Source: a virus. From it: DNA of 23,990 nucleotides. The position numbers and the translations under genes are program-made. Below are positions 1,382-23,683 of the stretch, in pieces. The notes under the pieces were generated by a model that did not search any database, was not told the origin of the DNA, and was given only the letters and a program-made list of their open reading frames with translations. The stretch lies in the IMG/VR virus record IMGVR_UViG_3300017772_000130, positions 1 through 23,990 of that record, one strand, 5' to 3'. Within the stretch, counting starts at the first letter, position 1; each line of letters starts with the position of its first letter.

Positions 1382-1624
1382 TTATTTAGTGTTTTTAAGG
1401 ATTATGCCCACTGCAGTGTGGCAATACTTTTTGTCGCACTTGATTCTCCACACAATATCATCAATCTCAACTGATTCATCATACCTAAAAGGCCATGTTC
1501 TTGCATAATGCAGTGTGACTGGTTGCATCTTGGATGCCAAAAACTGATTGGTACCACATGCCACACACTTTTTTATGGCATGAAATTGATCAGGTGTTAG
1601 TGTGGGATAATATTGAACTTTCAT
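1382..1624 (-). CDS. Small Cys-pair protein, possible zinc ribbon
   Basis: 80 residues from ATG 1624, which shares a base with the preceding TAA (TAATG); an upstream in-frame start at 1690 would lie inside the holin-like gene and is rejected. It contains C20-V-A-C23-G and C63-x4-C68, spaced as two halves of a possible zinc site, separated by a stretch with TLHYARTWPFRYDES. I do not recognise a family. A structural zinc site is inferred from spacing only; the second pair is wider than usual. It is the last gene of the main coupled series before a 156-base gap. Confidence 0.6.
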   Translation of the reverse strand: MKVQYYPTLTPDQFHAIKKCVACGTNQFLASKMQPVTLHYARTWPFRYDESVEIDDIVWRIKCDKKYCHTAVGIILKNTK

Positions 1625-1815
1625 TACAGCATCATGATCAGTGCCGCAATTATGCCTAACAGTTGTGCAAACACAGCACTCACTGCCCATAAAAAGTATT
1701 TTTTAATGTTGGCTATGTCGTCTTCAATGTGTGTTAAATGATTATTTTGGATTATCTCCAATCGTTGTTCTATTAGTGCAACTTTTTTGTCTAATTCGTT
1801 TAATTTTGTGTCCAT
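1624..1815 (-). CDS. Holin-like (XhlA-type) membrane protein
   Basis: 63 residues from ATG 1815, which overlaps the preceding stop (TAATG); a longer frame from 1851 would run into the fibre gene. Residues 1-38 form a heptad-patterned helix (LNELDKKVALIEQRLEIIQN, NHLTHIEDDIANIKK), and residues 41-62 are one membrane span (FLWAVSAVFAQLLGIIAALIMM). A soluble coiled coil with NHL-HI, then a single C-terminal membrane segment, is the layout of XhlA-type haemolysin/holin accessory proteins. That would place it in lysis, though no endolysin is in the window. A membrane anchor of another kind is possible. Confidence 0.6.
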   Translation of the reverse strand: MDTKLNELDKKVALIEQRLEIIQNNHLTHIEDDIANIKKYFLWAVSAVFAQLLGIIAALIMML

Positions 1816-2240
1816 TATGATATTGTAGCACCCAGTGCAACCACTTTCCATGCAGAACCATCATACACTGCTAATGTTTTTGATCCTGAATTACCGTTGG
1901 AACAGTATGCAACATCGCCCTCAGTTTTGTCTGTTCGTGCATTTAGTTGTGCCAGTGTTTGTGGATTAAGATTAAGCACATCTTCAATTTTGACTTTGCC
2001 TGTGGCAGGGTCCAGTGTTAATGCATTTGTGGCAGATGAATTAATTTCGTCTGGCAGTTGTACTGCTGAAATTTTTGAGTTTGAATCTAGTCCTGGTACT
2101 CCATTTGCTGCGTTTCGACCATTAATAATTGATGTAATTTCGTCCAGTGCGGCTTTTAGATCAGCTCGTGCATTTGCTGGTGAGTCTGATGAAGCATCCA
2201 AATTAAGAGTGCTAATGTTTCCTGCTGTTCCCCATGTCAT
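1815..2240 (-). CDS. Short tail fibre-like protein
   Basis: 141 residues. The N-terminus MTWGTAGNISTLNLDASSDS, then PANARADLKAALDEITSII, has the same layout as the neighbouring fibre gene: M-x-W, a short strand, then a helix with A-A-L. The C-terminus GDVAYCSNGNSGSKTLAVYD, then GSAWKVVALGATIS, is a motif I recall from marine phage fibres ('G-VAYC-dG-aG-p-LavYdGs-WK'). GGAG is 11 bases before the start. The stop forms TAATG with the holin-like gene. It probably is a small fibre or fibre-associated subunit. Confidence 0.7.
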   Translation of the reverse strand: MTWGTAGNISTLNLDASSDSPANARADLKAALDEITSIINGRNAANGVPGLDSNSKISAVQLPDEINSSATNALTLDPATGKVKIEDVLNLNPQTLAQLNARTDKTEGDVAYCSNGNSGSKTLAVYDGSAWKVVALGATIS

Positions 2241-4581: not shown

Positions 4582-6806
4582 TAGATAGAACCTCCATCGT
4601 CTGGTAAATTAGCAATTGTGTCTTTAAGATAGTTAATATATGCTTCAAGACTGCTGCCAGTTTTTGTTTCACCATTAACATCATATGTATGACTAGTAAA
4701 ACCAGAAATCCAATTAATAACACCACCTATTTCATATGTTCTGTCAATTGTGCTTTTGTAGTATGTCACACTGTATTCATATCCTTTGTTTAAAGGAAAT
4801 TCTGGTGTGATTGCAGGTGAATATGCAACATAATTTGCATCTGTTGTTGGTAGACCATTTGTTTGTATATTTCTAAATGGTATTCTTGCTTGTTCTACAA
4901 GTGTAGTGCCTTTATATAGTCTAAATTGTAAAAAATCTATAGATGATTCACTTGGTCTTTGAAAACGCATGCCTAACGCAATTGATCCGCCAATTGCATT
5001 AAAATAATTAAATTGGCTTGCTGAAAAATTTCCACCTATTAATCTAAATGCTCCATCATATCCAAAAGTTGAATATTGTGTGTTTTCGCCTAATGGTCCA
5101 TCCAAATGATCAGGATAGGTGGCTGCATAAGATGTATTTGGTAAACTGCCAGCAACCCATGACTTTAAACCTGGTGGTGTAGGTGGATCTTTTGGTGGGG
5201 GTGGTGGTGAACCTGGAGGTGGATTTACACCAATTTTTCCAATAACTTTTTGTATAGGTTTACCTTGGTATTCGTCTGGTAAAAATAATGGTGGTGGTAT
5301 TTCAACTTGTGGACCTGTTTGATATGGATAATTTGCAGCCACATGTTCTGCAGCCTCAATGCCCACAGTGCCATCATTGTTTAGTTTCATGTTGGTCACT
5401 CTAAATGTTGCTGTAGTTAAATTTAAAACAGTGTCTGTTACTCTTACAATATCGCCTGGTTCTACATCCATTAATTCTTGTGTGCATGTCATAGATATTG
5501 TTCTTTGTGACCTTGATTTTTTATAAATCATTCTTGCAAAATCTCTTGCCATATAAGGATTTGTAATTGTGTCAAATGTAAATTCACCAGTTAAATCTTC
5601 ATTATCATCCACAGCTAAATCGCCTGCTTCACTAAAAGCAACCTGTTGGCTTGAATATTCTAAATCAGGATCAATATAGTTAACAAACACATTGTTAAAT
5701 TTTGTTGTTTTAGTTTCGCCACCTAACGCAATTGTGCCAACAATATTGTCTGCTGTAATATCGTATGCAACTGCAATAGTGCTTGATGTTATGTCAGTAG
5801 CATTACCACCATCTTCAACTTTAAGTTTATATCTGCCCTCAATAAAAGGTAATATTGACCTACAGCCAGATAATAGCTGTCTTACATTGTCTATTATTTT
5901 AGAATTTGTGCTTAAAACACCATTTAAAGTAAGTATTTTTCCTGTATCAACAGATGATGTATCGTATGTTACTGTTTGATCAAATTTATCTGCTGCAATT
6001 TTGAAAACATCAGCATTAATAAAACTTTTATTATAACCTGCACCGTATCTGGGATTCATAAGATAATCTGCAACACAGTTAGCAGGATTAGTTGAATATG
6101 TTTTTGTTAGATCAGCATAATCATTAGCTAAATCTAATCCACCAGAATGTGTGGTTAAGTCATACACTTTTTTGCCTAACACATCAAATGTAACTTGCGG
6201 TATACCACCGCCATATGGGTTAGAATCAGCTTCTTCTTGTGTGCTTGCTTTCCATTCAAATCTAAATGCTGCGTATGCAACACCTGGCAGTTTTCGTTCA
6301 AGTGTTGGCCAAGTTTTAGATTCGTTAGCAAGACCACTTTGGCTTTGATTTTCTGTGCCATAAAATACTTCAAATGTTAACCTATCGTTGTAACGACCTT
6401 GTGTTGTATTATAACGATTATTTGCAACATAAACACTGTCACCCGAAGCCACTGTTGGGTATATTTCATTTTCATCAATTTTAATGCCGGTAATACCTTG
6501 TATTTCGCCTTCACATATTGCATATACTACATATAGATATTTGTTATCAGATCCATCTGTTTCAACAAAAATTGGATGTCCACCAACTCGTCTATAACCG
6601 TACACAATTGGAATGCCTATGTTTGTGCCAGTTTTGTTTATTTTTACACCAGTTGCAATTTGTTCAGCATCAATGTTTAATGAAGGTGTTGAAAATGGTT
6701 TGATTACAAAGCCTACAATGTCGCCCACAAATGATGTAATAGTGCTAAAAAGTTTTTTAACACCTCTTACAAATTTTTTAATTGGATTTGATCCGCCTTT
6801 ACCCAT
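4581..6806 (-). CDS. gpJ-like tail tip attachment protein
   Basis: 741 residues. After a basic amphipathic N-terminus (MGKGGSNPIKKFVRGVKKLF) comes the hub core. It contains IPIVYGYRRVGGHPIFVE (65-82), a typical tail-tip motif, KYLYVVYAICEGEIQGI, NCVADYLMNPRYGAG (243-257), FARMIYKKSRSQRTI and MDVEPGDIVRVTD (446-458). These fit the Phage-tail_3/gpJ hub. Residues 529-546 are a Pro-rich linker (PPPGSPPPPPKDPPTPPG). The last 190 residues form a separate beta-rich domain that may contact the host. The protein would close the tail tip and take part in host recognition. Confidence 0.88.
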   Translation of the reverse strand: MGKGGSNPIKKFVRGVKKLFSTITSFVGDIVGFVIKPFSTPSLNIDAEQIATGVKINKTGTNIGIPIVYGYRRVGGHPIFVETDGSDNKYLYVVYAICEGEIQGITGIKIDENEIYPTVASGDSVYVANNRYNTTQGRYNDRLTFEVFYGTENQSQSGLANESKTWPTLERKLPGVAYAAFRFEWKASTQEEADSNPYGGGIPQVTFDVLGKKVYDLTTHSGGLDLANDYADLTKTYSTNPANCVADYLMNPRYGAGYNKSFINADVFKIAADKFDQTVTYDTSSVDTGKILTLNGVLSTNSKIIDNVRQLLSGCRSILPFIEGRYKLKVEDGGNATDITSSTIAVAYDITADNIVGTIALGGETKTTKFNNVFVNYIDPDLEYSSQQVAFSEAGDLAVDDNEDLTGEFTFDTITNPYMARDFARMIYKKSRSQRTISMTCTQELMDVEPGDIVRVTDTVLNLTTATFRVTNMKLNNDGTVGIEAAEHVAANYPYQTGPQVEIPPPLFLPDEYQGKPIQKVIGKIGVNPPPGSPPPPPKDPPTPPGLKSWVAGSLPNTSYAATYPDHLDGPLGENTQYSTFGYDGAFRLIGGNFSASQFNYFNAIGGSIALGMRFQRPSESSIDFLQFRLYKGTTLVEQARIPFRNIQTNGLPTTDANYVAYSPAITPEFPLNKGYEYSVTYYKSTIDRTYEIGGVINWISGFTSHTYDVNGETKTGSSLEAYINYLKDTIANLPDDGGSI

Positions 6807-7290
6807 CGTAGTCCTTTATTTGTTTGACCATGTAATGTCCTACAGTTTGCATACCTTGTGTTTTGTAAAACAACGCAGCACGATCCATATATTTTTGCAT
6901 TGGCTCATAATTTTTATTAAAATGCATTATGCTTGTTACATAATAATCACAATTATTTTTTCTAAACCAATTAACTAGATTTTGCATTAATTCATCTGCA
7001 ATTTTTTTACTTCTGTTTTCTGGTTTAATAAAAATGTATAATATTTCACCATATTTTTTATCGTTCCAATGTTTTGTGCCAATTAAACCATATATATAAC
7101 CTACTATTTGTTCATTTTCAGTTGCAACAATGCCAGCATAATGATTGGCTATTATTGCATCTCGTATATTTTCTGCTAATATGTCTGCATTAATTTTATC
7201 TGATTCATGCAAATCAGCATCAATTGCTTGTGCTTGTATACAGTCTATTAATGGTTTTATATCTGCTACTTTGATTGGTCTTATTATCAT
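6799..7290 (-). CDS. GNAT-family N-acetyltransferase in the tail operon
   Basis: 163 residues from ATG 7290, which forms TAATG with the preceding stop; an in-frame start 15 bases upstream would overlap that gene and is less likely. The fold signature is clear: IIRPIKVADIKPL (strand 1, helix 1), YAGIVATENEQIVGYIYGLI (strands 2-4), ILYIFIKPENRSKKIADELM (motif A, 83-102) and ALFYKTQGMQTVGHYMVKQI at the end, with the usual FYK-GM. The acetyl-CoA loop is degenerate: R93-S-K-K-I-A98 has Lys where Gly is common. It would move acetyl from acetyl-CoA to an amine. The substrate is unknown. Its end overlaps the tail tip gene by 8 bases. Confidence 0.85.
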   Translation of the reverse strand: MIIRPIKVADIKPLIDCIQAQAIDADLHESDKINADILAENIRDAIIANHYAGIVATENEQIVGYIYGLIGTKHWNDKKYGEILYIFIKPENRSKKIADELMQNLVNWFRKNNCDYYVTSIMHFNKNYEPMQKYMDRAALFYKTQGMQTVGHYMVKQIKDYDG

Positions 7291-7865
7291 TATTTTAAAC
7301 CCCATTTAATTTCGGCCAATGTTTCATGTGAATACTGCATAGAATGATCATTAGGATGTTCTCTTTGAAAATTTTGTTGGTTAGTTCTTCTGCCGTTTTT
7401 TCTGTTAAAATTTATAAATTGGCTTGAAACTTGTAGTTGAATATCTGCAAAATTTTGGTTGTTTGTAACTGAATAGCCTGCAATTTTACCTTTAAAAAGC
7501 AAATAGCCTGTGTCTGTTGTGCCGTTACCTAATAAACCGTTTGTTGATGGATTTAAAAATACTCTTCGTATTTCTACATTTTTATTAATTTGTGTTGATG
7601 TTGCATATGTTGTAATGTTAGATGTTTTTAATGCACTTAATGATATGTTAACACTGTGTATTTGTAATTCAGCTGTTTCGTCTCTTTCACTGATATTTAA
7701 AAAATCACCTTGTGCTTGATATGTGTTGCTGTTAAACACAATGTCAAATGAATTATCTGTAAATCGTGATGTGCCGCTGCCAGTTTCAATGTCTAACAAT
7801 AAACAACCAATTAGACTGTTACCCGCAAGGTATGTGTTAAGTGTTGATGTAAATCCTCTGGCCAT
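7290..7865 (-). CDS. DUF2163/BR0599-like tail hub protein
   Basis: 191 residues. The N-terminal half has strands like CLLLDIETG, FDIVFNSNTYQAQGDFLNIS and AELQIHSVNISLSAL, which is the typical 'l..i.....vyR.t.h..di.f.g..Y' opening of DUF2163 proteins. The second half has VEIRRVFLN, LLFKGKIAGYSV (122-132) and DIQLQVSS, then NRKNGRRTNQQNFQREHPND (154-173), matching the Arg-rich end of the BR0599 family. In gene transfer agents the homologous protein is a baseplate hub before the tail-tip protein. It starts and ends in TAATG overlaps. Confidence 0.7.
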   Translation of the reverse strand: MARGFTSTLNTYLAGNSLIGCLLLDIETGSGTSRFTDNSFDIVFNSNTYQAQGDFLNISERDETAELQIHSVNISLSALKTSNITTYATSTQINKNVEIRRVFLNPSTNGLLGNGTTDTGYLLFKGKIAGYSVTNNQNFADIQLQVSSQFINFNRKNGRRTNQQNFQREHPNDHSMQYSHETLAEIKWGLK

Positions 7866-13140: not shown

Positions 13141-14007
13141 TTATGCTAATGTAGCATTACCAATAATAGACACTCCATAGTTATCAAACACTTCAGTAGT
13201 ACCATATGCCATTGATCCTACGATTTCCGTAGCTCTCATAGAGGCATCTCTTTGGTTTTCTACTCTCATGTTTCTTTTTAGCATGTATGCCATAGCATCT
13301 GCAGAAAAAGCAGCACCATAATAGTTTCCAGTACCAGTTGATTCAGCAGAATTTCCACCAATTACTGTACTTTCGAAAATATTTACATTTGCAATTTTAC
13401 CTATGAAACCTTCAGATAATGCTGTATTACCAACATCAGATAAAGCGTGACTCATAGTTGCGCCTGCATTAGTTAACTGTTTCTTTAAAGAGTATGCTTG
13501 GAATGGATGCAATACACAGTAGTACGGTCCTGGAGCATTCGCTGCTCTTAGACGCGCCGCTGCTTTAAAAATTGTGTCCACTGATATGTCTGTTGCACCT
13601 GATCCTACAGTTTGTGAAAAACCTGTGAATAGCGCAGCAATATCTTGGTCAACTTTTAAACCCATTGCTTGTCCAATTTGACGACCAATTGCTGTTGCAA
13701 CATCTTCGTTTGATGTTTCAGTTGCAAGGTCAGTCAATGTTACCAATACACCTCTTTCAGATGCAGTGATTGTTTTTGATGTAGTGACTTCAAACGCTTT
13801 GTTTGCTAGGTCAGCTCCATCAGCCGGTGAATCAGCTGTTAAAACCGGAAAAATCGGAATTTGCGCTGTTAGACCCGGGGTTCCGCTCATATCGTAATTA
13901 CGAATTAACGGTCTTAATATAGACGATTCTTGTAGCGTGTATAATCCAGCCTGAACTATGTTGGAATACAACGCCGTTGTTACGCCTGTATCTACTTCAT
14001 TTGACAT
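13141..14007 (-). CDS. Major capsid protein (HK97 fold)
   Basis: 288 residues. The N-terminal arm (TALYSNIVQAGLYTLQESSILRPLI) is followed by the extended-loop region (PIFPVLTADSPADGADLA) and the spine-helix segment ETSNEDVATAIGRQIGQAMGLKVDQDIAALF. The P-domain/A-domain core contains YYCVLHPFQAYSLKKQL and GFIGKIANVNIFES. Near the end is FSADAMAYMLKRNMRVE, and then VFDNYGVSIIGNATLA. This is typical of unprocessed HK97-fold coat proteins. GGAG stands before the ATG. An intrinsic terminator follows about 30 bases after the stop, which would favour high mRNA output for this gene over those beyond it. Confidence 0.93.
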   Translation of the reverse strand: MSNEVDTGVTTALYSNIVQAGLYTLQESSILRPLIRNYDMSGTPGLTAQIPIFPVLTADSPADGADLANKAFEVTTSKTITASERGVLVTLTDLATETSNEDVATAIGRQIGQAMGLKVDQDIAALFTGFSQTVGSGATDISVDTIFKAAARLRAANAPGPYYCVLHPFQAYSLKKQLTNAGATMSHALSDVGNTALSEGFIGKIANVNIFESTVIGGNSAESTGTGNYYGAAFSADAMAYMLKRNMRVENQRDASMRATEIVGSMAYGTTEVFDNYGVSIIGNATLA

Positions 14008-14025: not shown

Positions 14026-14730
14026 TTATAGACGAACACCTTTTTTCTTCATGATCTCTTTATAGCGAGCTCGATGATCAGGGTTCATCATGTTTAGTTT
14101 ACTTGTATCGTTATCAACCACTGGATCTTGCTTACCAAAACCTTGTCCTGTACCAGAACCTGATGGTCCTGCTTGCACAAAGTGTTTGTTAGCATTCAAG
14201 AAATTGTTTACCAAGTCTTTTACACTAAATGGATCACCATTATCGTTGTATTTTACTTGTCCGTTTGACGGATCAATTACATCCACTTGACCTGCTTCAT
14301 TTAATTTTAACTGCGCTTTCAAAAGTTGTGTAACCTGATTAGGGTTAATTGCTTTTGCTGTTGCTGCCTCATTTAATAAAGCACCATCAATTTTAATTGA
14401 TTGAAGTTCGTTTTCATATTGACCTATTTTTGAGTTAAATTTTTCAGCTTGCTCTTTAAGCAATTTTTCAAATTCGCCTCTTTTTTCTAGTTCGCCATGT
14501 CTACGCTTTTCTTCAGCTTCAACTAATTGTTTATAATGATCCACATCAACACCAGAATACTTTTTTTCGTATTTGGCTTTTTCCCTTGCAATTCGATCTT
14601 TAACAATTTTTTCTAAATCGTCTTGACCAAACTTTAAGTTAGTTTCTTCTTGTTTTACCTGTGTATCAGCCTGCTCTTTTATTTCAGGTGCAGTTTCCTG
14701 AGATTTTACCGCTTCTGTTTCTGCGTTCAT
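14026..14730 (-). CDS. Capsid scaffold protein
   Basis: 234 residues, directly before the major capsid gene. An acidic N-terminus (MNAETEAVKSQETAPEIKEQ) leads into a long charged coiled coil at about residues 35-115, rich in Glu and Lys (LEKIVKDRIAREKAKYEKKY, EKRRHGELEKRGEFEKLLKE). A Gly-rich linker (GPSGSGTGQGFG) follows, then a basic C-terminal helix (DHRARYKEIMKKKGVRL). This is the usual plan of gp20-like phage scaffolds, whose basic end binds coat protein during prohead assembly. No protease motif is visible. The start follows AGAGGT. Confidence 0.85.
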   Translation of the reverse strand: MNAETEAVKSQETAPEIKEQADTQVKQEETNLKFGQDDLEKIVKDRIAREKAKYEKKYSGVDVDHYKQLVEAEEKRRHGELEKRGEFEKLLKEQAEKFNSKIGQYENELQSIKIDGALLNEAATAKAINPNQVTQLLKAQLKLNEAGQVDVIDPSNGQVKYNDNGDPFSVKDLVNNFLNANKHFVQAGPSGSGTGQGFGKQDPVVDNDTSKLNMMNPDHRARYKEIMKKKGVRL

Positions 14731-14791: not shown

Positions 14792-14947
14792 TTATCTTTT
14801 CTTCTTTTTGCCTCTAGTCATTGACTTTTTAGAGTTTTTCTTCTTTTTTCCTCGTGTCATGATGGTTCCTCCTTTTATTTTAAATTTTCTGCGTTGTTGT
14901 TTTTGTCCTATAGTGGCAGAAATCTTTGAAACTGTTGTTATCGCCAT
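14792..14947 (-). CDS. Small basic protein, 51 residues (alternative 22-residue form)
   Basis: The longer frame begins at ATG 14947 inside the last codons of the previous gene (10-base overlap): MAITTVSKISATIGQKQQRR and onward, to a TAA at 14792. Residue 30 is a second in-frame ATG at 14860, preceded 7 bases away by a perfect AAGGAGG (14868-14874). From there the product is only 22 residues and is a near-tandem repeat, MTRGKKKKNSKKS followed by MTRGKKKKR. The long form has coupling but no visible ribosome site of its own, so either or both forms may be made. The family is unknown. It is the last of the small basic genes before the scaffold. Confidence 0.55.
   Translation of the reverse strand: MAITTVSKISATIGQKQQRRKFKIKGGTIMTRGKKKKNSKKSMTRGKKKKR
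14868..14874 (-). promoter_or_regulatory. Consensus Shine-Dalgarno inside a small gene
   Basis: AAGGAGG lies 7 bases upstream of ATG 14860 and is one of the best ribosome sites in the window. It falls inside the 51-residue frame, where it encodes Lys-Gly-Gly, and supports an internal start that yields a 22-residue basic peptide. Confidence 0.6.
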
Positions 14948-15195
14948 GCTTTCATACTCCAATATGCTGGTGATAATGATTTTTGGCCTTTAACTTTTTT
15001 TAGTACAGCACCCATTCTTGCTAAAAATGACTTTTGTCTAACAGGATTATTTTTCTTTATAGTCATGCCTTTTTGGCCAAAGTTAACTTTTTTAACATTG
15101 CCTGTGCTTCTGTCTTTAACAAACACTTTAAATTTTTTAACATCACCTCTGCTTGGTTTATTTAATTTGACTGTTCTACCTTGATATTTGGCCAT
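14938..15195 (-). CDS. Basic protein with conserved C-terminal Arg/Trp module
   Basis: 85 residues. The N-terminal half is a small basic domain (MAKYQGRTVKLNKPSRGDVKK, VKDRSTGNVKKVNFG). The C-terminal half reads GMTIKKNNPVRQKSFLARM, then a gap, then SPAYWSMKAWR. From memory the pattern 'VNFG--MxIKKxxPxRRKSFRARH...ARYWSCxxW' recurs in uncharacterised proteins of the head region of T4-like and other marine phages. This copy lacks the Cys residues of that version (M instead of C in YWSM). It starts in a TAATG overlap. Function is unknown. The company of capsid genes suggests a head role. Confidence 0.7.
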   Translation of the reverse strand: MAKYQGRTVKLNKPSRGDVKKFKVFVKDRSTGNVKKVNFGQKGMTIKKNNPVRQKSFLARMGAVLKKVKGQKSLSPAYWSMKAWR

Positions 15196-15320
15196 TATCT
15201 ACCTTGTCCTTTATATTTTTTAAAATTTTTCTTTTCTGATTTATTCATTCTTTTTTTGTGTCTGCCTAACTTTTTTGGTTTTGGCCTTAGTTCAATATCT
15301 TTAAATTTTATTCGTGCCAT
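15195..15320 (-). CDS. Lysine-rich 41-residue protein
   Basis: This is a short gene read by hand: MARIKFKDIELRPKPKKLG, then a very basic stretch (RHKKRMNKSEKKNFKKYKGQGR). Start and stop both lie in TAATG overlaps with the genes on either side, which is the main reason to accept so short a frame. About 40 percent of residues are Lys or Arg. I recognise no family. Size and charge resemble capsid-internal or nucleic-acid-binding peptides, but this is inference. Confidence 0.65.
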   Translation of the reverse strand: MARIKFKDIELRPKPKKLGRHKKRMNKSEKKNFKKYKGQGR

Positions 15321-15502
15321 TATCGTTTTTTAATCATTTTACTAATATACATATTTTTTACAAGACTTACTTTTTTACCAAAAAGCCTATCTGCTTTTCT
15401 TTTTACTTTGGCATATGTTTTAGTTTTTGTATTGAATGATTTTGGTTTACCTATACTTTTAGGTCTTTTCTTTTCCCATACAGGTTTTTGCTTTTTTTTC
15501 AT
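15320..15502 (-). CDS. Lysine-rich 60-residue protein
   Basis: The protein starts MKKKQKPVWEKKRPKSIGKP and is strongly basic throughout, ending VKNMYISKMIKKR. I chose the ATG at 15502, which shares its A with the previous stop (TAATG) and stands 10 bases after GGAG. An upstream in-frame TTG at 15508 is only 4 bases from GGAG and is less likely. There are no acidic clusters and no membrane segment. The family is unknown. Position between portal and scaffold suggests a minor head protein, perhaps packaged with DNA, but nothing in the sequence proves that. Confidence 0.7.
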   Translation of the reverse strand: MKKKQKPVWEKKRPKSIGKPKSFNTKTKTYAKVKRKADRLFGKKVSLVKNMYISKMIKKR

Positions 15503-15744
15503 TAACAAAATTCTCCTTCTTTATGTGTATTATACTTAATTTTTTTATGTCTTTCGTTTATTTCTTTGCGTCTTATCACAATAAGTTTTTTTAATTGTAA
15601 TAAAATTTTGCGTGCTTTCACACCATATTTTTTGTAATTTTTTTGTTCAAAAATATGTATGGCATCGTTGTACTCTGATAACAAATCTCTTATTTGTTTT
15701 TCAGTGCCAAATACAAAATCTCTTGCTGGAATAAATTTACCCAT
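15502..15744 (-). CDS. Small helical basic protein after portal
   Basis: 80 residues, predicted helical, with a central charged segment AIHIFEQKNYKKYGVKARKILLQLKKLIVIRRKEINERHKKI and a single Cys at the end. I do not recognise the family. Its ATG lies inside the last codons of the portal gene (8-base overlap) and its stop forms TAATG with the next gene, so it is translated in the head cassette. It is the first of five small, lysine-rich genes in a row. A head-assembly or DNA-binding role is only a guess from place and charge. Confidence 0.75.
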   Translation of the reverse strand: MGKFIPARDFVFGTEKQIRDLLSEYNDAIHIFEQKNYKKYGVKARKILLQLKKLIVIRRKEINERHKKIKYNTHKEGEFC

Positions 15745-17260
15745 TGTTAAACAGTCTACCTAATTCTGGATGTAATTCTAAAATCTGTTCGTCTGTATAA
15801 CCTTGTTCTACCATTTCTCTCATGTGTTTCACAAGATTATTTTGGTCTGTTAATGGTGGGTGTTCGTTTGGTGTGTTAGGTGTGGTTGGTAAAGCTGGTG
15901 TTTCATTTGCAACCAAATCATAATCTTTTTCCATTAATGTTTCATATATTTTTTGGTCAATTTGTGCAATAATTTCTGGATTTTCAATGTTTGACTCTTT
16001 GGCCATTTTAAACATTGCAATACTGTTTGCTTTGTCTTGTATTGAAAATGATCTAGGATATTCTATTTTACCATTCCATGTTGTGCCTTGGAACATACAC
16101 CATAATCTCCAAATTTGTTCTTCAACATGTTCACAATTTAATGCAAAATCTGATATTTTAGCTCCTAATAATTGAAATTCAGAAGATAATGCAATACCGG
16201 ATAATCTTCTGCTTTCTATACTTCTTATACCGCCAACAGATGACATTTGGTTTATTGCATCAACTTTTTTCTGTACAGATTCTAGTACTGCTTCAATGCT
16301 TGCGCCTGATGGTTGTAATAAAAATGGTTTTAAACCGGGATCTAGATTGTCTTCCATTTGGATTATAGAACCTGCTCCAGCACTTGCTTGTGTGCCTGTA
16401 GTTTTCACCAAACTTGGGTGGTTGGTTAGTCTAATAATACTTTGTATTTCGTTTAATTCTTCATAGATTGATCTTTGCATATCTGCTTGATCACCCACTG
16501 CAGATACACCAACACCTCTTATTGCACTTCTTTGTGCATATAAACACACAGCAGGTATTTTACCTATAGTGTTTGGTATTGTTTCGATGTATTCAGCTTT
16601 TCTATCTTCGCCATACATTTTATAAATGTGTATTTCATTTTTTGTGTATTCTCTTATAAACTGTTTGTTATTAACAATTTCTTCTTTTATTTTTAGATAT
16701 GTTAATTCATATAAACCATTTGGCTGTCTTTCGTATTCCCAGTCTAACACATTTTCTGGTGTAAACAAAGATACATATGGTCTGATATTTTGATTTAGTT
16801 CGTCTGCTCTTGTGTTTGCAACTGATACAGGTTTTTCAACAATAATCCATGCATTTCCATACACCATGGCCATTGTTGCCGCATCTCTTAAAAATGCTTG
16901 AAATGATCTACCGTCTAGATCTGCATCTTCAGTAAATGCTTGAAGTGCTGGATCATTATCAATTGTGCCATAATCTCTTTTTGGCTCTTTTCTAAATAAA
17001 AATGATGTGTAAATTCCTACAATAGCTTTAACATGATTATCAAGTGCAAGCATACGCAATCTTTTTTCATAATCATCTCTGCTTTCATAATAGTATGGCT
17101 CTAAATATTTGCCCATAAAATAATCATAACCACCATTATAACTATCTCTTAAAAATTGCCATCTATTAAAATAATGTGAGTACGCATTGTGTGATTCTAA
17201 AAGATAATCTATTTGATACTTTGAATCACCTTTTATAAATCTATCTAATATAACAGGCAT
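15737..17260 (-). CDS. Portal protein
   Basis: The 507-residue protein follows the large terminase in a TAATG overlap. It would form the dodecameric ring at one capsid vertex through which DNA passes. Recognisable features are the aromatic N-terminal region (FNRWQFLRDSYNGGYDYFMG), the ALDNHVKAIVGIYTSFLFRKEP segment, GNAWIIVEKP, the wing/stem region around AVCLYAQRSAIRGVGVSAVGD, and the helical RSIYEELNEIQSIIRLTNHPSLV. This looks like the DUF4055-type portal family. The C-terminus is acidic and Pro-rich, then ends LELHPELGRLFNNG. The stop overlaps the next small gene by 8 bases (ATGGGTAA). Confidence 0.9.
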   Translation of the reverse strand: MPVILDRFIKGDSKYQIDYLLESHNAYSHYFNRWQFLRDSYNGGYDYFMGKYLEPYYYESRDDYEKRLRMLALDNHVKAIVGIYTSFLFRKEPKRDYGTIDNDPALQAFTEDADLDGRSFQAFLRDAATMAMVYGNAWIIVEKPVSVANTRADELNQNIRPYVSLFTPENVLDWEYERQPNGLYELTYLKIKEEIVNNKQFIREYTKNEIHIYKMYGEDRKAEYIETIPNTIGKIPAVCLYAQRSAIRGVGVSAVGDQADMQRSIYEELNEIQSIIRLTNHPSLVKTTGTQASAGAGSIIQMEDNLDPGLKPFLLQPSGASIEAVLESVQKKVDAINQMSSVGGIRSIESRRLSGIALSSEFQLLGAKISDFALNCEHVEEQIWRLWCMFQGTTWNGKIEYPRSFSIQDKANSIAMFKMAKESNIENPEIIAQIDQKIYETLMEKDYDLVANETPALPTTPNTPNEHPPLTDQNNLVKHMREMVEQGYTDEQILELHPELGRLFNNG

Positions 17261-18809: not shown

Positions 18810-19138
18810 TATGCTTGTCTTTCAATTATTTTAATTCTAAAATTTCTGCTATCACGCAGGCCGTTTGTTGTTACAATTTTATATTCTATGTTGTATGTGT
18901 TGCCTGCTGTGCCTGCAGATATGTTTGCTGTAACAGTGTTAGCTGTTACCCCTGTTGAATCAATTGTTAATGCCGATGAATCGCCTGCAATTGTTTCTGC
19001 TGTGACAGTTGCAGATGTAATTGAATCACCTGCTGGCATCCAATCTACAAAATCTAATGTGTAATCTAAAATTGCATAGGGATCTTTATCTATAATTTTG
19101 CCTGCTCTATCTTGTTTAAAACCTGTTAATGTTGGCAT
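18809..19138 (-). CDS. Ig-like small virion protein
   Basis: This protein of 109 residues has no signal peptide. Its core is a beta-sandwich-like domain: DYTLDFVDWMPAGDSITSATV, then alternating strands, then SAGTAGNTYNIEYKIVTTNG and RDSRNFRIKIIERQ. The pattern 'DP-A-LDY--D---W---GD-I----W' followed by 'GGTAG--Y-V---I-T--GR-D-R-F-I-V-E' is, from memory, very common in phages of Gram-negative bacteria. There it is usually called a fibre or head-associated protein. It starts in a TAATG overlap with the adhesin and ends in a TAATG overlap with the small terminase. Tight coupling to packaging and adhesin genes favours a structural role. Confidence 0.65.
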   Translation of the reverse strand: MPTLTGFKQDRAGKIIDKDPYAILDYTLDFVDWMPAGDSITSATVTAETIAGDSSALTIDSTGVTANTVTANISAGTAGNTYNIEYKIVTTNGLRDSRNFRIKIIERQA

Positions 19139-21144
19139 TATATTCTATCTCCTACTCTTCTGTTACTACGCTGTACAATTGTTTTATCATTGTAAATTTC
19201 AGCTTTGCGTGTTTCACTTAGCATAGTTTCTTTTCGTGTTTCTTGGTTAATTTTATTTATACGAGATTCGCTATTTATTTGGTCATCCCTTAATTCTGCC
19301 TGTACTATTATTTTTCTAAGTTCTGAAGCAATATCTATTGCTCTAAATGGATCTACTGCCTGTAATATTCTGCCTGATGCACTTGTTTGTGTACTTGTAT
19401 TTATATTAGTATCTTTTGCTGTAAAATTAACATTTAATAAAAAATTAGTTTGGTGTGAACTTGTAATTTGTGCTTGTGCAGTTTGTTTTAATAAAGTTGG
19501 TATAATTGTGGTTTGAGCATCTGCTGCAATTGATGAAGCAAATGTTTTTAAATATCCACCAACAACATTTGTGGCTGTTTCTATGTCTAAGCTGGTTGAT
19601 ACAACAAAATTTAATCCGCCTTGTAAAACTGCAGTCATGTCTGTGGCTATTGATGCTTGACCACTAAACAATATACCTGCTGTTGTGCCTGCTGTTTGGT
19701 CAACTACATATTGCGCATCAGCACCAAGTGTTAATGTACCTGATGTTTGTAGATAACCTGCAACAGTGTTAATTGCAGTATCTGCAATTATATTTGCATC
19801 TGGTATTATTTCAACTGTGGCTGTGCCTGATGCTTGTGAATCTGAAGTAACACTTATAACAGCAACAATTGCATTTCCGCCTAATGCATTAAATTGTGCA
19901 TCTGCCGCAAAATTATATGTTGTGGTTTGTAATCTTCCGCCTGTACTTGCAAAAATAGAACTAGCTGTTGCCGACATTGATTCATCAAATATTAAACCTG
20001 TCTCATTGTTAATTGCACTTGAAGCAGAAATACTTGATGTCCCAAATCTTGCTAGACCACCAAGTGTATCAAACACACTCCTTGCACTAAATGATTGGTT
20101 CATGGCTGCATCAAATGTTATACCAACATAACTGTCTGCAACATAATTGTCAACAACATAATCTAGATCAGGAAAGCCTACTGTATTTCTTGCTGTACTT
20201 GTTTGTGTAATTGTAGATGCAAAATTATTTGGATCAGCAATAATGGCATTCCCGCCAATACTGTTAATTGTAGTTGTTACTGCAAAATCGTTTGGATCAG
20301 CATTTTTAAAATTTATAGTGTTAATGCTAATAGCATTTTGCACACTGTTAGACATTGTGCCTACATCATATGCAACATATGGGATAGTTCGCACAGTTGT
20401 TGGATTCCAATTAATATCATTAAGTGGATAAGCAGATGATCCAATCCTTAATAAAAATTCTTCATACAGACCAGCACCTACATTCATAGATGAATTAAAA
20501 TTATATGATCCGTTTCCTGGTGTCCAACTATCTTTTAGTGCACCATCAAAATATAGATAAAACACACCACTTAGTCTATAAAGTCTTACATGAATCCAAG
20601 AACTATGTGTGGATAATGATGTTAACGCAGTTGCAGAAATAGTAAAATTAAAATGTTGTAATATTAATGAGTTGCTATTAAAACCTTGTCTTAATCTAAA
20701 TAAATGTGAACTACTACTATTTTCATATGTTAATTCAATATAGCCTGATCCAAGATAATGACTGTCTTGGCCATACATTCTTAAAACTGTTTGTCTACTA
20801 GATGGAAGATATTGTGGTGAAAAGAAAAAATCTACAGAAAAATCGTTTGTGCCTGCTTGTGTAGGATATGTGCCAGTCGAACGGTTTAAAGTGAATCCTG
20901 GATAAGTTGTTCCGCCAACTGTGCCTGCTAATAATTGATCAGCATATAAACCATCATTTGTTGATCCTACATATGATGTAAAATTTGTACCGCCAGTACT
21001 GCTTGTGTGGTTTTTATATGTAAGTCCAGTCGCAACGGTATCGCCAGTTGTTTCATCAACTGCAGATTGACTACTTACAGTGATACCGCTTGAACTATCC
21101 CTAGTAAAATGGATTAATGATCTTATGTTGCCAAAATCGGCCAT
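19138..21144 (-). CDS. LamG-containing repeat adhesin
   Basis: The protein has 668 residues in three zones. Residues 85-245 look like one LamG/concanavalin domain (DFSVDFFF, W-HVRLYRL, YLYFDG). Residues about 283-550 form a long Ala/Thr/Ser-rich region of degenerate units of roughly 19-24 residues, often with a central GG (INSIGGNAI, FDTLGGLAR, FNALGGNAI, TNVVGGYLK). Residues 607-651 hold five units of exactly nine residues with E and R at fixed places. The end is basic (SNRRVGDRI). This build suits a fibrous surface protein with a globular binding head. The start ATG follows GGAGGT. The stop overlaps the next start as TAATG. From memory, marine phages carry related proteins next to the terminase genes, but their role is not established. 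Confidence 0.75.
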   Translation of the reverse strand: MADFGNIRSLIHFTRDSSSGITVSSQSAVDETTGDTVATGLTYKNHTSSTGGTNFTSYVGSTNDGLYADQLLAGTVGGTTYPGFTLNRSTGTYPTQAGTNDFSVDFFFSPQYLPSSRQTVLRMYGQDSHYLGSGYIELTYENSSSSHLFRLRQGFNSNSLILQHFNFTISATALTSLSTHSSWIHVRLYRLSGVFYLYFDGALKDSWTPGNGSYNFNSSMNVGAGLYEEFLLRIGSSAYPLNDINWNPTTVRTIPYVAYDVGTMSNSVQNAISINTINFKNADPNDFAVTTTINSIGGNAIIADPNNFASTITQTSTARNTVGFPDLDYVVDNYVADSYVGITFDAAMNQSFSARSVFDTLGGLARFGTSSISASSAINNETGLIFDESMSATASSIFASTGGRLQTTTYNFAADAQFNALGGNAIVAVISVTSDSQASGTATVEIIPDANIIADTAINTVAGYLQTSGTLTLGADAQYVVDQTAGTTAGILFSGQASIATDMTAVLQGGLNFVVSTSLDIETATNVVGGYLKTFASSIAADAQTTIIPTLLKQTAQAQITSSHQTNFLLNVNFTAKDTNINTSTQTSASGRILQAVDPFRAIDIASELRKIIVQAELRDDQINSESRINKINQETRKETMLSETRKAEIYNDKTIVQRSNRRVGDRI
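19192..19326 (-). repeat. Five exact 27-base-period (9-residue) repeats
   Basis: Residues 607-651 of the adhesin read as five consecutive 9-residue units: SELRKIIVQ, AELRDDQIN, SESRINKIN, QETRKETML, SETRKAEIY. Glu recurs at 608, 617, 626, 635 and 644, and Arg at 610, 619, 628, 637 and 646, with no insertion. The period is exact at protein level, while the DNA has diverged. Confidence 0.85.
19495..20298 (-). repeat. Degenerate ~20-residue protein repeats in the adhesin
   Basis: This part of the 668-residue adhesin encodes about ten units of 19-24 residues with the loose pattern small/Ala-rich strand, GG or G, then a hydrophobic strand. Examples are NFAADAQFNALGGNAIV, NIIADTAINTVAGYLQT, QASIATDMTAVLQGGLN and LDIETATNVVGGYLKT. 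Units diverge in sequence but keep spacing, which suggests a beta-solenoid or fibrous stack rather than recent duplication. Confidence 0.55.
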
Positions 21145-21670: not shown

Positions 21671-23683
21671 TTAACTGTTGTCATCTGTTTGAGTGGTTGA
21701 CTCACAATGGAATAAAGCAATCGTGTTATCATCATTTGTGAATGCAGAACCTGGTACTGTGATATTGCTGGAACTGTGTGTGTATCTGTTGTTGTTTGAC
21801 AATCTTATTTCATCTATGGTGTTGGTTCCTGAATTTGTTCCTTCTCCTGCTTGTCTATTACCAAAGAACAAGTTAGTGGTAGCACTTATGCTGTGTGAAG
21901 CAGATATCTTGTGTGTACCATCTAACCACAAATGGAACGAACCTGTGCCGTCGTACTGCATTGCAATATGATGAAAACTTGTGCCTGGATTGCCAAGATT
22001 TGTTTCACCGCCGTCGTGTGTGAAATATAAATTACCATCTGAATATGTGTGCAGTGTTAGACGGTTTGAACTGGTTGGAAAACCGTCACTGCTAAGGGAA
22101 CCTGTTGAAAATAGTTTTGTTGTTTTGTTTGATGTGCCACCATCACTGATTTTAAATCTAAATTCCAATGTTAATGTTTGGTCATCATCAAATTCAAACC
22201 CTGCAGGTAACATATTCAAATAAGCGTGTGATCCGCCAGCACTTAATTGTAGTGCATTGTTGAATACACCGCTTGATGTTTGTGTCCATCCACCATTGCT
22301 CCATTCTGATAGAGCTCTTGGTCCAACATCTTTGGTTGTTGTGTCATTATTTGAACCTTCAAAGTGTAGCAAGAGTTTTGTATAACCATCTGCCTCAAAA
22401 GCAGATGTGGGTGGTGTGAATGCTTGACTGTATCTTGCCACACTCGAATGTCTGAACTCATCTACATAACCTACAATTCCAAATCCTCCACCTCCAAGAT
22501 ATACACCTATCCTGTAATCGTTGTTGACAAAATTCGTGCTGTTGGAAACACTTGCTAATGATGTGCCATCTCTATAAAAATGTAGTGTGCCTGATTTTCT
22601 AACAATCGCCAAATGATACCATTGTCCTGTGCTCATGCCATGACTGGCTTTAAGCAGTTCTGAGTTACCATTTCTTATTACAAATTGACTTGATGAGTTA
22701 AAGTATCCATTCAGTCTGCTGGAAACACCACTTCCAGTATCAAAAAAGTATCTGCCGTGCACTGTGGTAAAATCTGTTGGATAGTAGAAAAATTCTATAG
22801 TAAAATCACCTGAACCTATATTTAGATTTGCATGTTCAGGATCCACAGCATCATTGTTGCCATCTAACTCAACACTACTTCCACCAAATTTTGCTTGGTC
22901 TGTGGAGATATGAGCATTATCTGTCAGTGTGATTGGAACTGCTGAATCTATTCTTACTCCATCATCTAATATCACTGTGCTGTTGTTGTCTCCATCACCG
23001 TGTATCAATAGATGTGTGTGTTCATCTTTTGTGAATGCTGATGTTGGCACTGTGATAGATGCGCCCGAATATCTTGCGTGACCTTTTGAAATTCTAAATT
23101 CATCTACAAAACCTGGTGGTGTGTAATTTTCAGCACCAATAGAATTGTGCCATATTCTTATTTGATCGTGTGCGTAATTGTTTGAGTCGGAATATGTTGA
23201 ACCAACTTGCGTGCCATCTACATATAAACTAGTTGTGCCTGATTCACGACACAATGCAATGTGTTGCCATTGATTGGCAGACAAAACATTACTTGCTGTA
23301 ATTCGATTGGCACTGCTCACATACAGATAAAGGTCATCTGCTGATCCATCTGATGGATATGAATACAATAAAATTTTTGCGCCGTTGGAACCATTACGCA
23401 AATCAACTGCAAATCTGTCTAATGATGTCAAATAATTAAACCATTCGATTGTAAAATCACCTGTGCCAAAGTCTAGATTGTTGCCCACATCTGCAATTTG
23501 AATGTAATCACCTGTGCCGTCCATAGCAATTGATGCCCCACCAAATTTATTTTGAGTAGTTGAAATTTTTGTATCTCCAAATGCTTCAATCACCATTGAT
23601 TGAGATGTTCTTGGATTTGGATCTGCCGCTGTTGTGCTTGATACTTTGGATAATGTGTTTATTCTAAATGCACCTAGTGGCAT
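21671..23683 (-). CDS. Adhesin with three LamG-like domains
   Basis: This 670-residue protein has three concanavalin/LamG-like jelly-roll domains at about residues 48-204, 265-416 and 475-634. Each starts with a FGG or NALQL strand, carries a GDFTIE-type strand ('DFGTGDFTIEWF', 'NIGSGDFTIEFF', 'DQTLTLEFRF'), a W-HIA or W-HLAI strand, a 'YVDGT' or 'YRDGT' turn and a closing VDEFR or IDEIR motif. Each closing motif is followed by a linker of the form RY----TVP-SAF. LamG domains bind glycans or proteins, and in tailed phages they sit on fibres or the capsid surface. No signal peptide or membrane segment is present. The start ATG at 23683 follows GGAG. The role in receptor or surface binding is inferred from domain type. 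Confidence 0.85.
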   Translation of the reverse strand: MPLGAFRINTLSKVSSTTAADPNPRTSQSMVIEAFGDTKISTTQNKFGGASIAMDGTGDYIQIADVGNNLDFGTGDFTIEWFNYLTSLDRFAVDLRNGSNGAKILLYSYPSDGSADDLYLYVSSANRITASNVLSANQWQHIALCRESGTTSLYVDGTQVGSTYSDSNNYAHDQIRIWHNSIGAENYTPPGFVDEFRISKGHARYSGASITVPTSAFTKDEHTHLLIHGDGDNNSTVILDDGVRIDSAVPITLTDNAHISTDQAKFGGSSVELDGNNDAVDPEHANLNIGSGDFTIEFFYYPTDFTTVHGRYFFDTGSGVSSRLNGYFNSSSQFVIRNGNSELLKASHGMSTGQWYHLAIVRKSGTLHFYRDGTSLASVSNSTNFVNNDYRIGVYLGGGGFGIVGYVDEFRHSSVARYSQAFTPPTSAFEADGYTKLLLHFEGSNNDTTTKDVGPRALSEWSNGGWTQTSSGVFNNALQLSAGGSHAYLNMLPAGFEFDDDQTLTLEFRFKISDGGTSNKTTKLFSTGSLSSDGFPTSSNRLTLHTYSDGNLYFTHDGGETNLGNPGTSFHHIAMQYDGTGSFHLWLDGTHKISASHSISATTNLFFGNRQAGEGTNSGTNTIDEIRLSNNNRYTHSSSNITVPGSAFTNDDNTIALFHCESTTQTDDNS

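Follow-up and report, generated by a model that had tools for sequence, protein, structure and literature searches.

Very small basic proteins, each inherited independently, share a head-operon slot in an IMG/VR phage record

Introduction

The chlamydial histone-H1-like protein Hc1 has a Lys-rich C-terminal tail that binds DNA. Hc1 proteins have been described in large aquatic phages (moraphages), where the authors suggest genome compaction during packaging (PMC12619734). Eukaryotic DNA viruses have small basic protamine-like proteins (see, for example, the introduction of PMC6163548). The Tlr6F protein (DUF5754) is conserved and widespread in DNA viruses and has no similarity to domains of known structure or function (PMC4642659); it occurs in polinton-like viruses, virophages and giant viruses (PMC4642659, PMC12220804). 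In phage T4, an N-terminal sequence of about 10 residues targets the internal proteins to the prohead core, and gp21 trims them (PMC9958956). T4-type prohead proteases cut after Glu within a short motif (PMC5694885).

Here we compare these systems with a block of five very small genes, A to E, that lies between the portal and scaffold genes of a marine phage. The window is the whole stretch of DNA that we analysed, 23,990 bases of IMG/VR record IMGVR_UViG_3300017772_000130. Related loci are cited by L numbers.

Results

Layout of the window

The order on the minus strand is TerS, TerL, portal, five small ORFs, scaffold, capsid and tail genes (Table 1). An earlier note on this DNA had placed five small ORFs between portal and scaffold and had taken their translation to be coupled through overlapping stops and starts. 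We found all five on the minus strand, with overlaps of 8 nt at portal/A, 1 nt at A/B, B/C and C/D (each junction reads TAATG) and 10 nt at D/E; E and the scaffold gene do not overlap but lie 61 nt apart. Local G+C is 28%, compared with 36% in the whole window. The same note described most of the products as Lys-rich and basic. That holds for B, C, D and E, which are strongly basic, but A is only mildly so, with 20 Lys and Arg residues against 10 Asp and Glu.

Table 1. Positions and properties of the small genes, their flanking head genes and other features of the window
Feature	Coordinates	Strand	Length (aa)	Net charge	K+R	Description
Gene A	15502..15744	-	80	+10	25%	putative divergent member of the Hc1 (histone-H1-like) family by its relatives, predicted helical hairpin
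Gene B	15320..15502	-	60	+22	40%	N-terminus VWEKKRPKSIGKPK, common with a broad small-protein family
Gene C	15195..15320	-	41	+15	44%	phrog_17967, family ending KKYRGQGR
Gene D	14938..15195	-	85	+22	28%	phrog_7595, sub-threshold DUF5754/Tlr6F-like
Gene E, long form	14792..14947	-	51	+20	39%	start within the end of D
Gene E, short form	14792..14860	-	22	+13		MTRGKKKKNSKKSMTRGKKKKR; inner ATG at 14860, AAAGGAGG upstream
Portal (flank)	15737..17260	-				phrog_145, 1.3e-59; translationally coupled to A
Head scaffolding (flank)	14026..14730	-				phrog_206, 3.8e-14
Major capsid (flank)	13141..14007	-				PF25209 over Pfam cut-off
Lectin-domain protein	21671-23683	-	670			three laminin-G-like lectin domains
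Neighbour of lectin-domain protein	19138-21144		668			no Pfam match
Acetyltransferase	6799-7305	-				GNAT family, within tail gene cluster
XhlA-like protein	1624-1851	-				small coiled-coil/membrane protein near the window's far end

The lectin-domain protein is a candidate receptor-binding or fibre protein, and its ORF ends near the window edge, adjoining the 668-residue protein. The acetyltransferase gene lies among the tail genes.

Conservation of the five genes

D is present at full length and 74–94% identity in at least 80 IMG/VR loci, and among the loci listed it is often better conserved than terminase, portal or capsid. Its dN/dS is 0–0.14, and that of C is 0.06. In close pairs, dN/dS is 0.06–0.13 for B and 0.03–0.34 for A. 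We saw no frame disruption of A–D in the relatives that we compared. The values for E are looser, about 0.2–1.0, and rest on few sites. Constraint on E is weak, particularly in the N-terminal extension.

That dN/dS of E reaches about 1 in distant pairs is what one would expect if the small ORFs were chance or decaying frames. We find that hardly credible, since A–D are conserved at full length with low dN/dS, intact frames and conserved overlaps, and the inner Shine-Dalgarno element of E is itself conserved. For A–D, conservation and dN/dS refute it. The earlier note had judged noise unlikely, and our results agree, the layout of E being kept although its constraint is weak. It had named frame disruption, Ka/Ks near 1 and frequent loss as signs to the contrary. 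The first two are absent for A–D, with close pairs well below 1. Loss is another matter: B, C and D are often lost or replaced, with the frames of A–D intact.

The slot in relatives

We scanned 51 loci that were seeded with the portal, a search blind to D. D occurs in some of them, C in one and B in none. Where portal identity is at least 60%, A follows the portal in 14 of 14 loci, and E precedes the scaffold gene in most of the 14. The slot of the nearest relative, L134 (portal 81% identical), holds A, a methyltransferase, C, D and E, with the methyltransferase replacing B. In the freshwater phage DSL-LC06 the slot holds only other small ORFs. Its occupants in other relatives are methyltransferases, a small membrane protein of XhlA type, or a pair of different small basic genes.

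The earlier note had treated the five genes as a set. The portal-seeded loci and L134 rule out one five-gene unit; the genes belong to distinct families, each with its own distribution, and have one slot in common. Because relatives differ in their slot genes, we regard the slot as having a variable content of small, mostly basic genes. In the window, this head-operon slot is occupied by a number of very small basic proteins, each with its own inheritance.

The methyltransferase-like gene in the slot of L134 (L134:2750-3253) belongs to Pfam Methyltransf_24, and two more were identified by eye (L009:1793-2293 and L021:5017-5526). Protein H, encoded immediately before D in the slot of L021, L023 and similar relatives, has a homologue (62 bits) in the XhlA-like protein at the window's far end. 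Judging by this match, the XhlA-like/H gene has moved place between genomes.

Gene A

Neither window A nor the A of L134 has a match in Pfam. However, five A homologues score over the cut-off of the Hc1 family (PF07432, 23.5 bits), at 41.8, 34.1, 31.4, 26.3 and 23.7 bits, and the best of these, from L023, is 48% identical to window A. Through its relatives, then, A would belong to the Hc1 family. AlphaFold2 gave a confident helical hairpin for A. Compared with the PDB, the hairpin had only non-significant helical matches (ribosomal S15-like chains and designed bundles among them), and a sequence search of solved structures with A gave nothing. A search with A alone found one relative, and single-sequence searches with A or C were replaced by profiles.

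A resembles chlamydial Hc1 in its homologues over the cut-off and in the predicted helical hairpin. It differs in that window A itself has no Pfam match and in that the long Lys-rich tail is missing: A ends KKIKYNTHKEGEFC, and its relatives end in acidic tails. The moraphage proteins (PMC12619734) are phage-encoded Hc1, as A would be through its relatives, but moraphages are jumbo-like. We found Hc1 in 2 of 20 genomes of D phages, so A and D do not co-travel.

Genes B, C and E

B matches phrog_34011 only weakly (E 0.6). A protein from locus L113 matches the same family at E 8e-19, and an iterated HMM groups it with B via the N-terminal 20 residues. B adjoins D in several phage lineages.

C matches phrog_17967 at E 4.2e-12, with residues 3–41 on positions 2–41 of 41. 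The family is broad. In T7-like phages its gene immediately precedes D within the scaffold–capsid interval, and HTVC112P-type phages have it between TerS and D. A tblastn search against phages with C alone had no match; C is too short for single-sequence search.

E has two in-frame starts, and the inner ATG gives a 22-residue protamine-like peptide. A Shine-Dalgarno-like element precedes this ATG in all homologues examined (it is weakest in L086), the short form alone is kept in locus L012, and a recognisable pattern, TSxS...IGxR, persists in the N-terminal extension. For these reasons both forms of E may be made. Most relatives have a short form of about 20–30 residues that is rich in Lys and Arg. 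It is like the protamine-like proteins of eukaryotic viruses in being very short and dominated by Lys and Arg (+13 in 22 residues), a likeness of composition alone.

Gene D

D matches phrog_7595 ('unknown function') at E 4.6e-16, with residues 2–84 on positions 8–96 of 96. The family is widespread and under strong purifying selection, and it is common to phages of SAR11, roseobacters, Methylophilales and flavobacteria. Of 84,980 species genomes only 30 contain it, and most of these are marine single-cell or metagenome assemblies, in keeping with a phage gene. Some of the D homologues are in Pelagibacteraceae single-cell contigs (L285-L289, L301, L302, L304, L310 and L312), some of which are over 100 kb; these contigs are possibly prophages or co-sorted infecting phages.

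D scores 23.6 bits against PF19058 (DUF5754/Tlr6F), below the Pfam cut-off of 27.4. Among 19 relatives of D, 16 match PF19058 at E up to 1, the best at 7.1e-6, and none passes the cut-off. A comparison of D with one DUF5754-like sequence in hhalign had no match. Because of the sub-cut-off score, the lack of a passing relative and the null one-sequence comparison, we have not filed D under DUF5754. Membership through a relative was also considered and dropped, as the single over-cut-off match among 30 records is a different protein. What D and Tlr6F/DUF5754 have in common is the sub-threshold match, small size and wide spread in DNA viruses.

The AlphaFold model of D has a pLDDT of 92 (input rows from IMG/VR only). 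Searches of the PDB with this fold (Foldseek, VIA-align) gave nothing significant, with a best VIA Z of 3.2, and no solved DNA-binding protein was matched, which says little either way. A sequence search of solved structures with D gave nothing. Against BFVD the matches are almost only uncharacterised phage proteins, with one named XkdF and one ChaB.

D beside head and packaging genes

In several phages D stands among genes for building or filling the head. It lies between scaffold and capsid in HTVC041P and Fussvirus S30C28, between TerS and TerL in HTVC111P/112P-type phages, and upstream of a head morphogenesis gene in Kolga. In roseophage CRP-6 it forms a single protein with an XkdF head-maturation protease (PF14550, 65 bits), and the fused gene is upstream of the capsid gene with two genes between. 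The CRP-6 product, gp55 (L273:3935-4624), has D at the N-terminus of the XkdF protease and is annotated only as a hypothetical protein. HTVC106P is an exception, as its D is not beside head genes.

Free-standing D usually begins M-AKYQGR or M-AEYQGR. After removal of Met, this start matches the predicted cut product of the fused D described below. Among the window proteins that we scanned, no head protease was recognised, whether of the gp21 type or of the XkdF type of CRP-6.

Could these be non-structural nucleic-acid-binding proteins, for example ones that regulate translation or late mRNA, and be encoded in the head operon only by circumstance? A slot that also accepts methyltransferases and an XhlA-like protein would allow this, as would the position of D outside the head module in HTVC106P. 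We nevertheless consider it very unlikely, because head, packaging and head-protease genes recur as partners in several lineages and because of the motif at the D junction.

D as a fused domain in T4-like and jumbo phages

A profile search added contigs of T4-like and jumbo phages, where D forms the C-terminal domain of longer, dissimilar proteins. A motif, [LIVMF]xE/[ASG] (the slash marks the junction), precedes D in 32 of 33 fusions, against a background of 1.06%, which is the share of positions in the N-terminal parts of the fusions. Examples are the junctions ...LPLEE/AEFQGKKVTL of HTVC008M AGE60465.1 and PMME/SEYQGKD of Melnitz-3 QZI94972.1. We then held the motif fixed and tested it on loci outside the defining set. 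In these held-out fusions the full motif is present in 57 of 67 and a P1 Glu in 59 of 67, with a background of 1.38%. Seven of the 67 carry ELFD/AEY instead, with Asp at P1 (L294, L295, L340, L357, L369, L372 and L376). In this sublineage of D precursors, either the protease differs or the site is uncut.

The charge on the two sides of the junction is opposite. The last 60 residues before D are net negative in 35 of 36 fusions and in 65 of 67 held-out ones (against other ORFs, p about 1e-12 and 1e-29), and the D domain has a median charge of +18 in the first set and +20 in the held-out set. Since the sequences are related by descent, these fusion counts describe conservation and are not independent trials. 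N-termini that resemble capsid-targeting sequences are enriched, though most fusions lack them: they occur in 14/38 compared with 20/252, and in the held-out set in 17/67 compared with 33/401, with a pattern that was written after viewing the first set and with uncertain start codons for the fused ORFs. Such an N-terminus is absent from the free-standing D of the window, which has no pro-region.

Among 17 records whose D is fused or of T4 type, 12 encode a gp21-type protease (PF03420) that passes the cut-off, and the misses are mostly fragmentary records. Each of 15 large phages (15/15) has exactly one D per genome. We had also considered D as a reusable capsid-targeting tag; the one copy per genome weakens that idea.

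In many phages a 27-residue gene, family G, immediately precedes D. It matches PHROG 28338, as does the DUF5824 region of Melnitz-3 and L261. In both of these, DUF5824 and D are within one polypeptide. The loci in point are L068:2396-2479 and others like it, and L138:2333-4285.

Another explanation is that the small proteins help to assemble or fill the head, as co-scaffolds or as partners of the portal or terminase, and are not kept in the virion once the head is built. The positions of D (portal–scaffold, TerS–TerL, scaffold–capsid), the coupling to the portal and the protease fusion in CRP-6 would all be expected of such factors. However, release of an intact and conserved basic domain at a predicted protease site points to a product that is kept, and in T4-like records such as HTVC008M the single D is far from the head genes. 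On balance we hold this to be quite unlikely.

Discussion

D is most likely a head-internal basic protein, either freed from an acidic precursor or encoded ready-made, and A, B, C and E may be accessory to it. We would give this reading a probability of roughly 55%. The earlier note had suggested internal head proteins that neutralise DNA charge, and that is the reading which the evidence from D and A supports best: for D, the protease-type junction, the acidic pro-region, the fusion to a head protease and the neighbouring head genes in several phage lineages, and for A, the Hc1 matches of its relatives.

In large T4-like phages, D would be made as the C-terminal domain of a precursor in which the acidic preceding region would shield it. 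The precursor would enter the prohead core, and a gp21-type prohead protease would cut after the Glu of the LxE/A site just before D. The freed domain, with a net charge of about +18 to +20, would stay in the head and bind incoming DNA, and may leave the head together with it. In the window phage the scaffold has a gene of its own and no head protease was recognised, and there D would be encoded pre-cut; without its initiator Met it starts AKYQGR, which matches the predicted processed N-terminus AEYQGR. A, with its histone-H1-like hairpin, B, C and the 22-residue E would serve as accessory basic proteins in that compartment, their translation being coupled to that of the portal while proheads assemble. 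We propose this accessory role because of their position and composition.

The T4 proteins IPI, IPII and IPIII are like D in being small, in the predicted entry into the core, in the predicted gp21-type cut after Glu and in belonging to T4-like genomes. We saw no sequence similarity between them and D. The propeptide of the D precursor is long, variable and acidic, in contrast to a leader of 10–20 residues, and D is strongly conserved, with small phages encoding it pre-cut and no protease recognised. If our reading is right, D would act as the T4 internal proteins do, although its architecture differs from theirs.

An alternative is that the phage packages D and the proteins encoded beside it as effectors and ejects them, as it does T4 IPI or Alt, so that they act in the newly infected cell in anti-restriction or host take-over. 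The proposed route into the head is the same, and the T4 internal proteins have been described as diverse defence proteins that share only their targeting sequence (PMC3012670). T4 internal proteins vary between relatives, though. D, by contrast, ranks with the best-conserved proteins that these phages have, and it occurs across phages of SAR11, roseobacters, Methylophilales and flavobacteria. The charge of D and its conservation across unrelated hosts lead us to favour a generic partner, in the simplest case the packaged DNA, over a host-specific effector; charge is no proof of this. We rate the effector explanation as somewhat unlikely and keep to D as a protein that would reside in the head. 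Our literature search for published virion proteomics of D phages gave nothing usable. Our reading predicts that D in the virion has a specific mature N-terminus, AEFQGKKVTL in the case of HTVC008M AGE60465.1, and that the head protease releases the basic domain.

A broader idea is that D and Tlr6F/DUF5754 are one genome-packing family. An acidic pro-region would silence the protein and the capsid maturation protease would switch it on in large phages, small phages would encode it pre-cut, and the polinton-like virus, virophage and giant virus proteins would be further members. We think this unlikely. If it were true, there would be a 'protease-activated viral protamine' shared by large phages, small phages, polinton-like viruses, virophages and giant viruses.

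If our reading of D is right, many marine phages, including those of SAR11, would carry a basic head protein that is either released by proteolysis or encoded pre-cut, and several tiny 'hypothetical' genes of head operons would gain a likely role.
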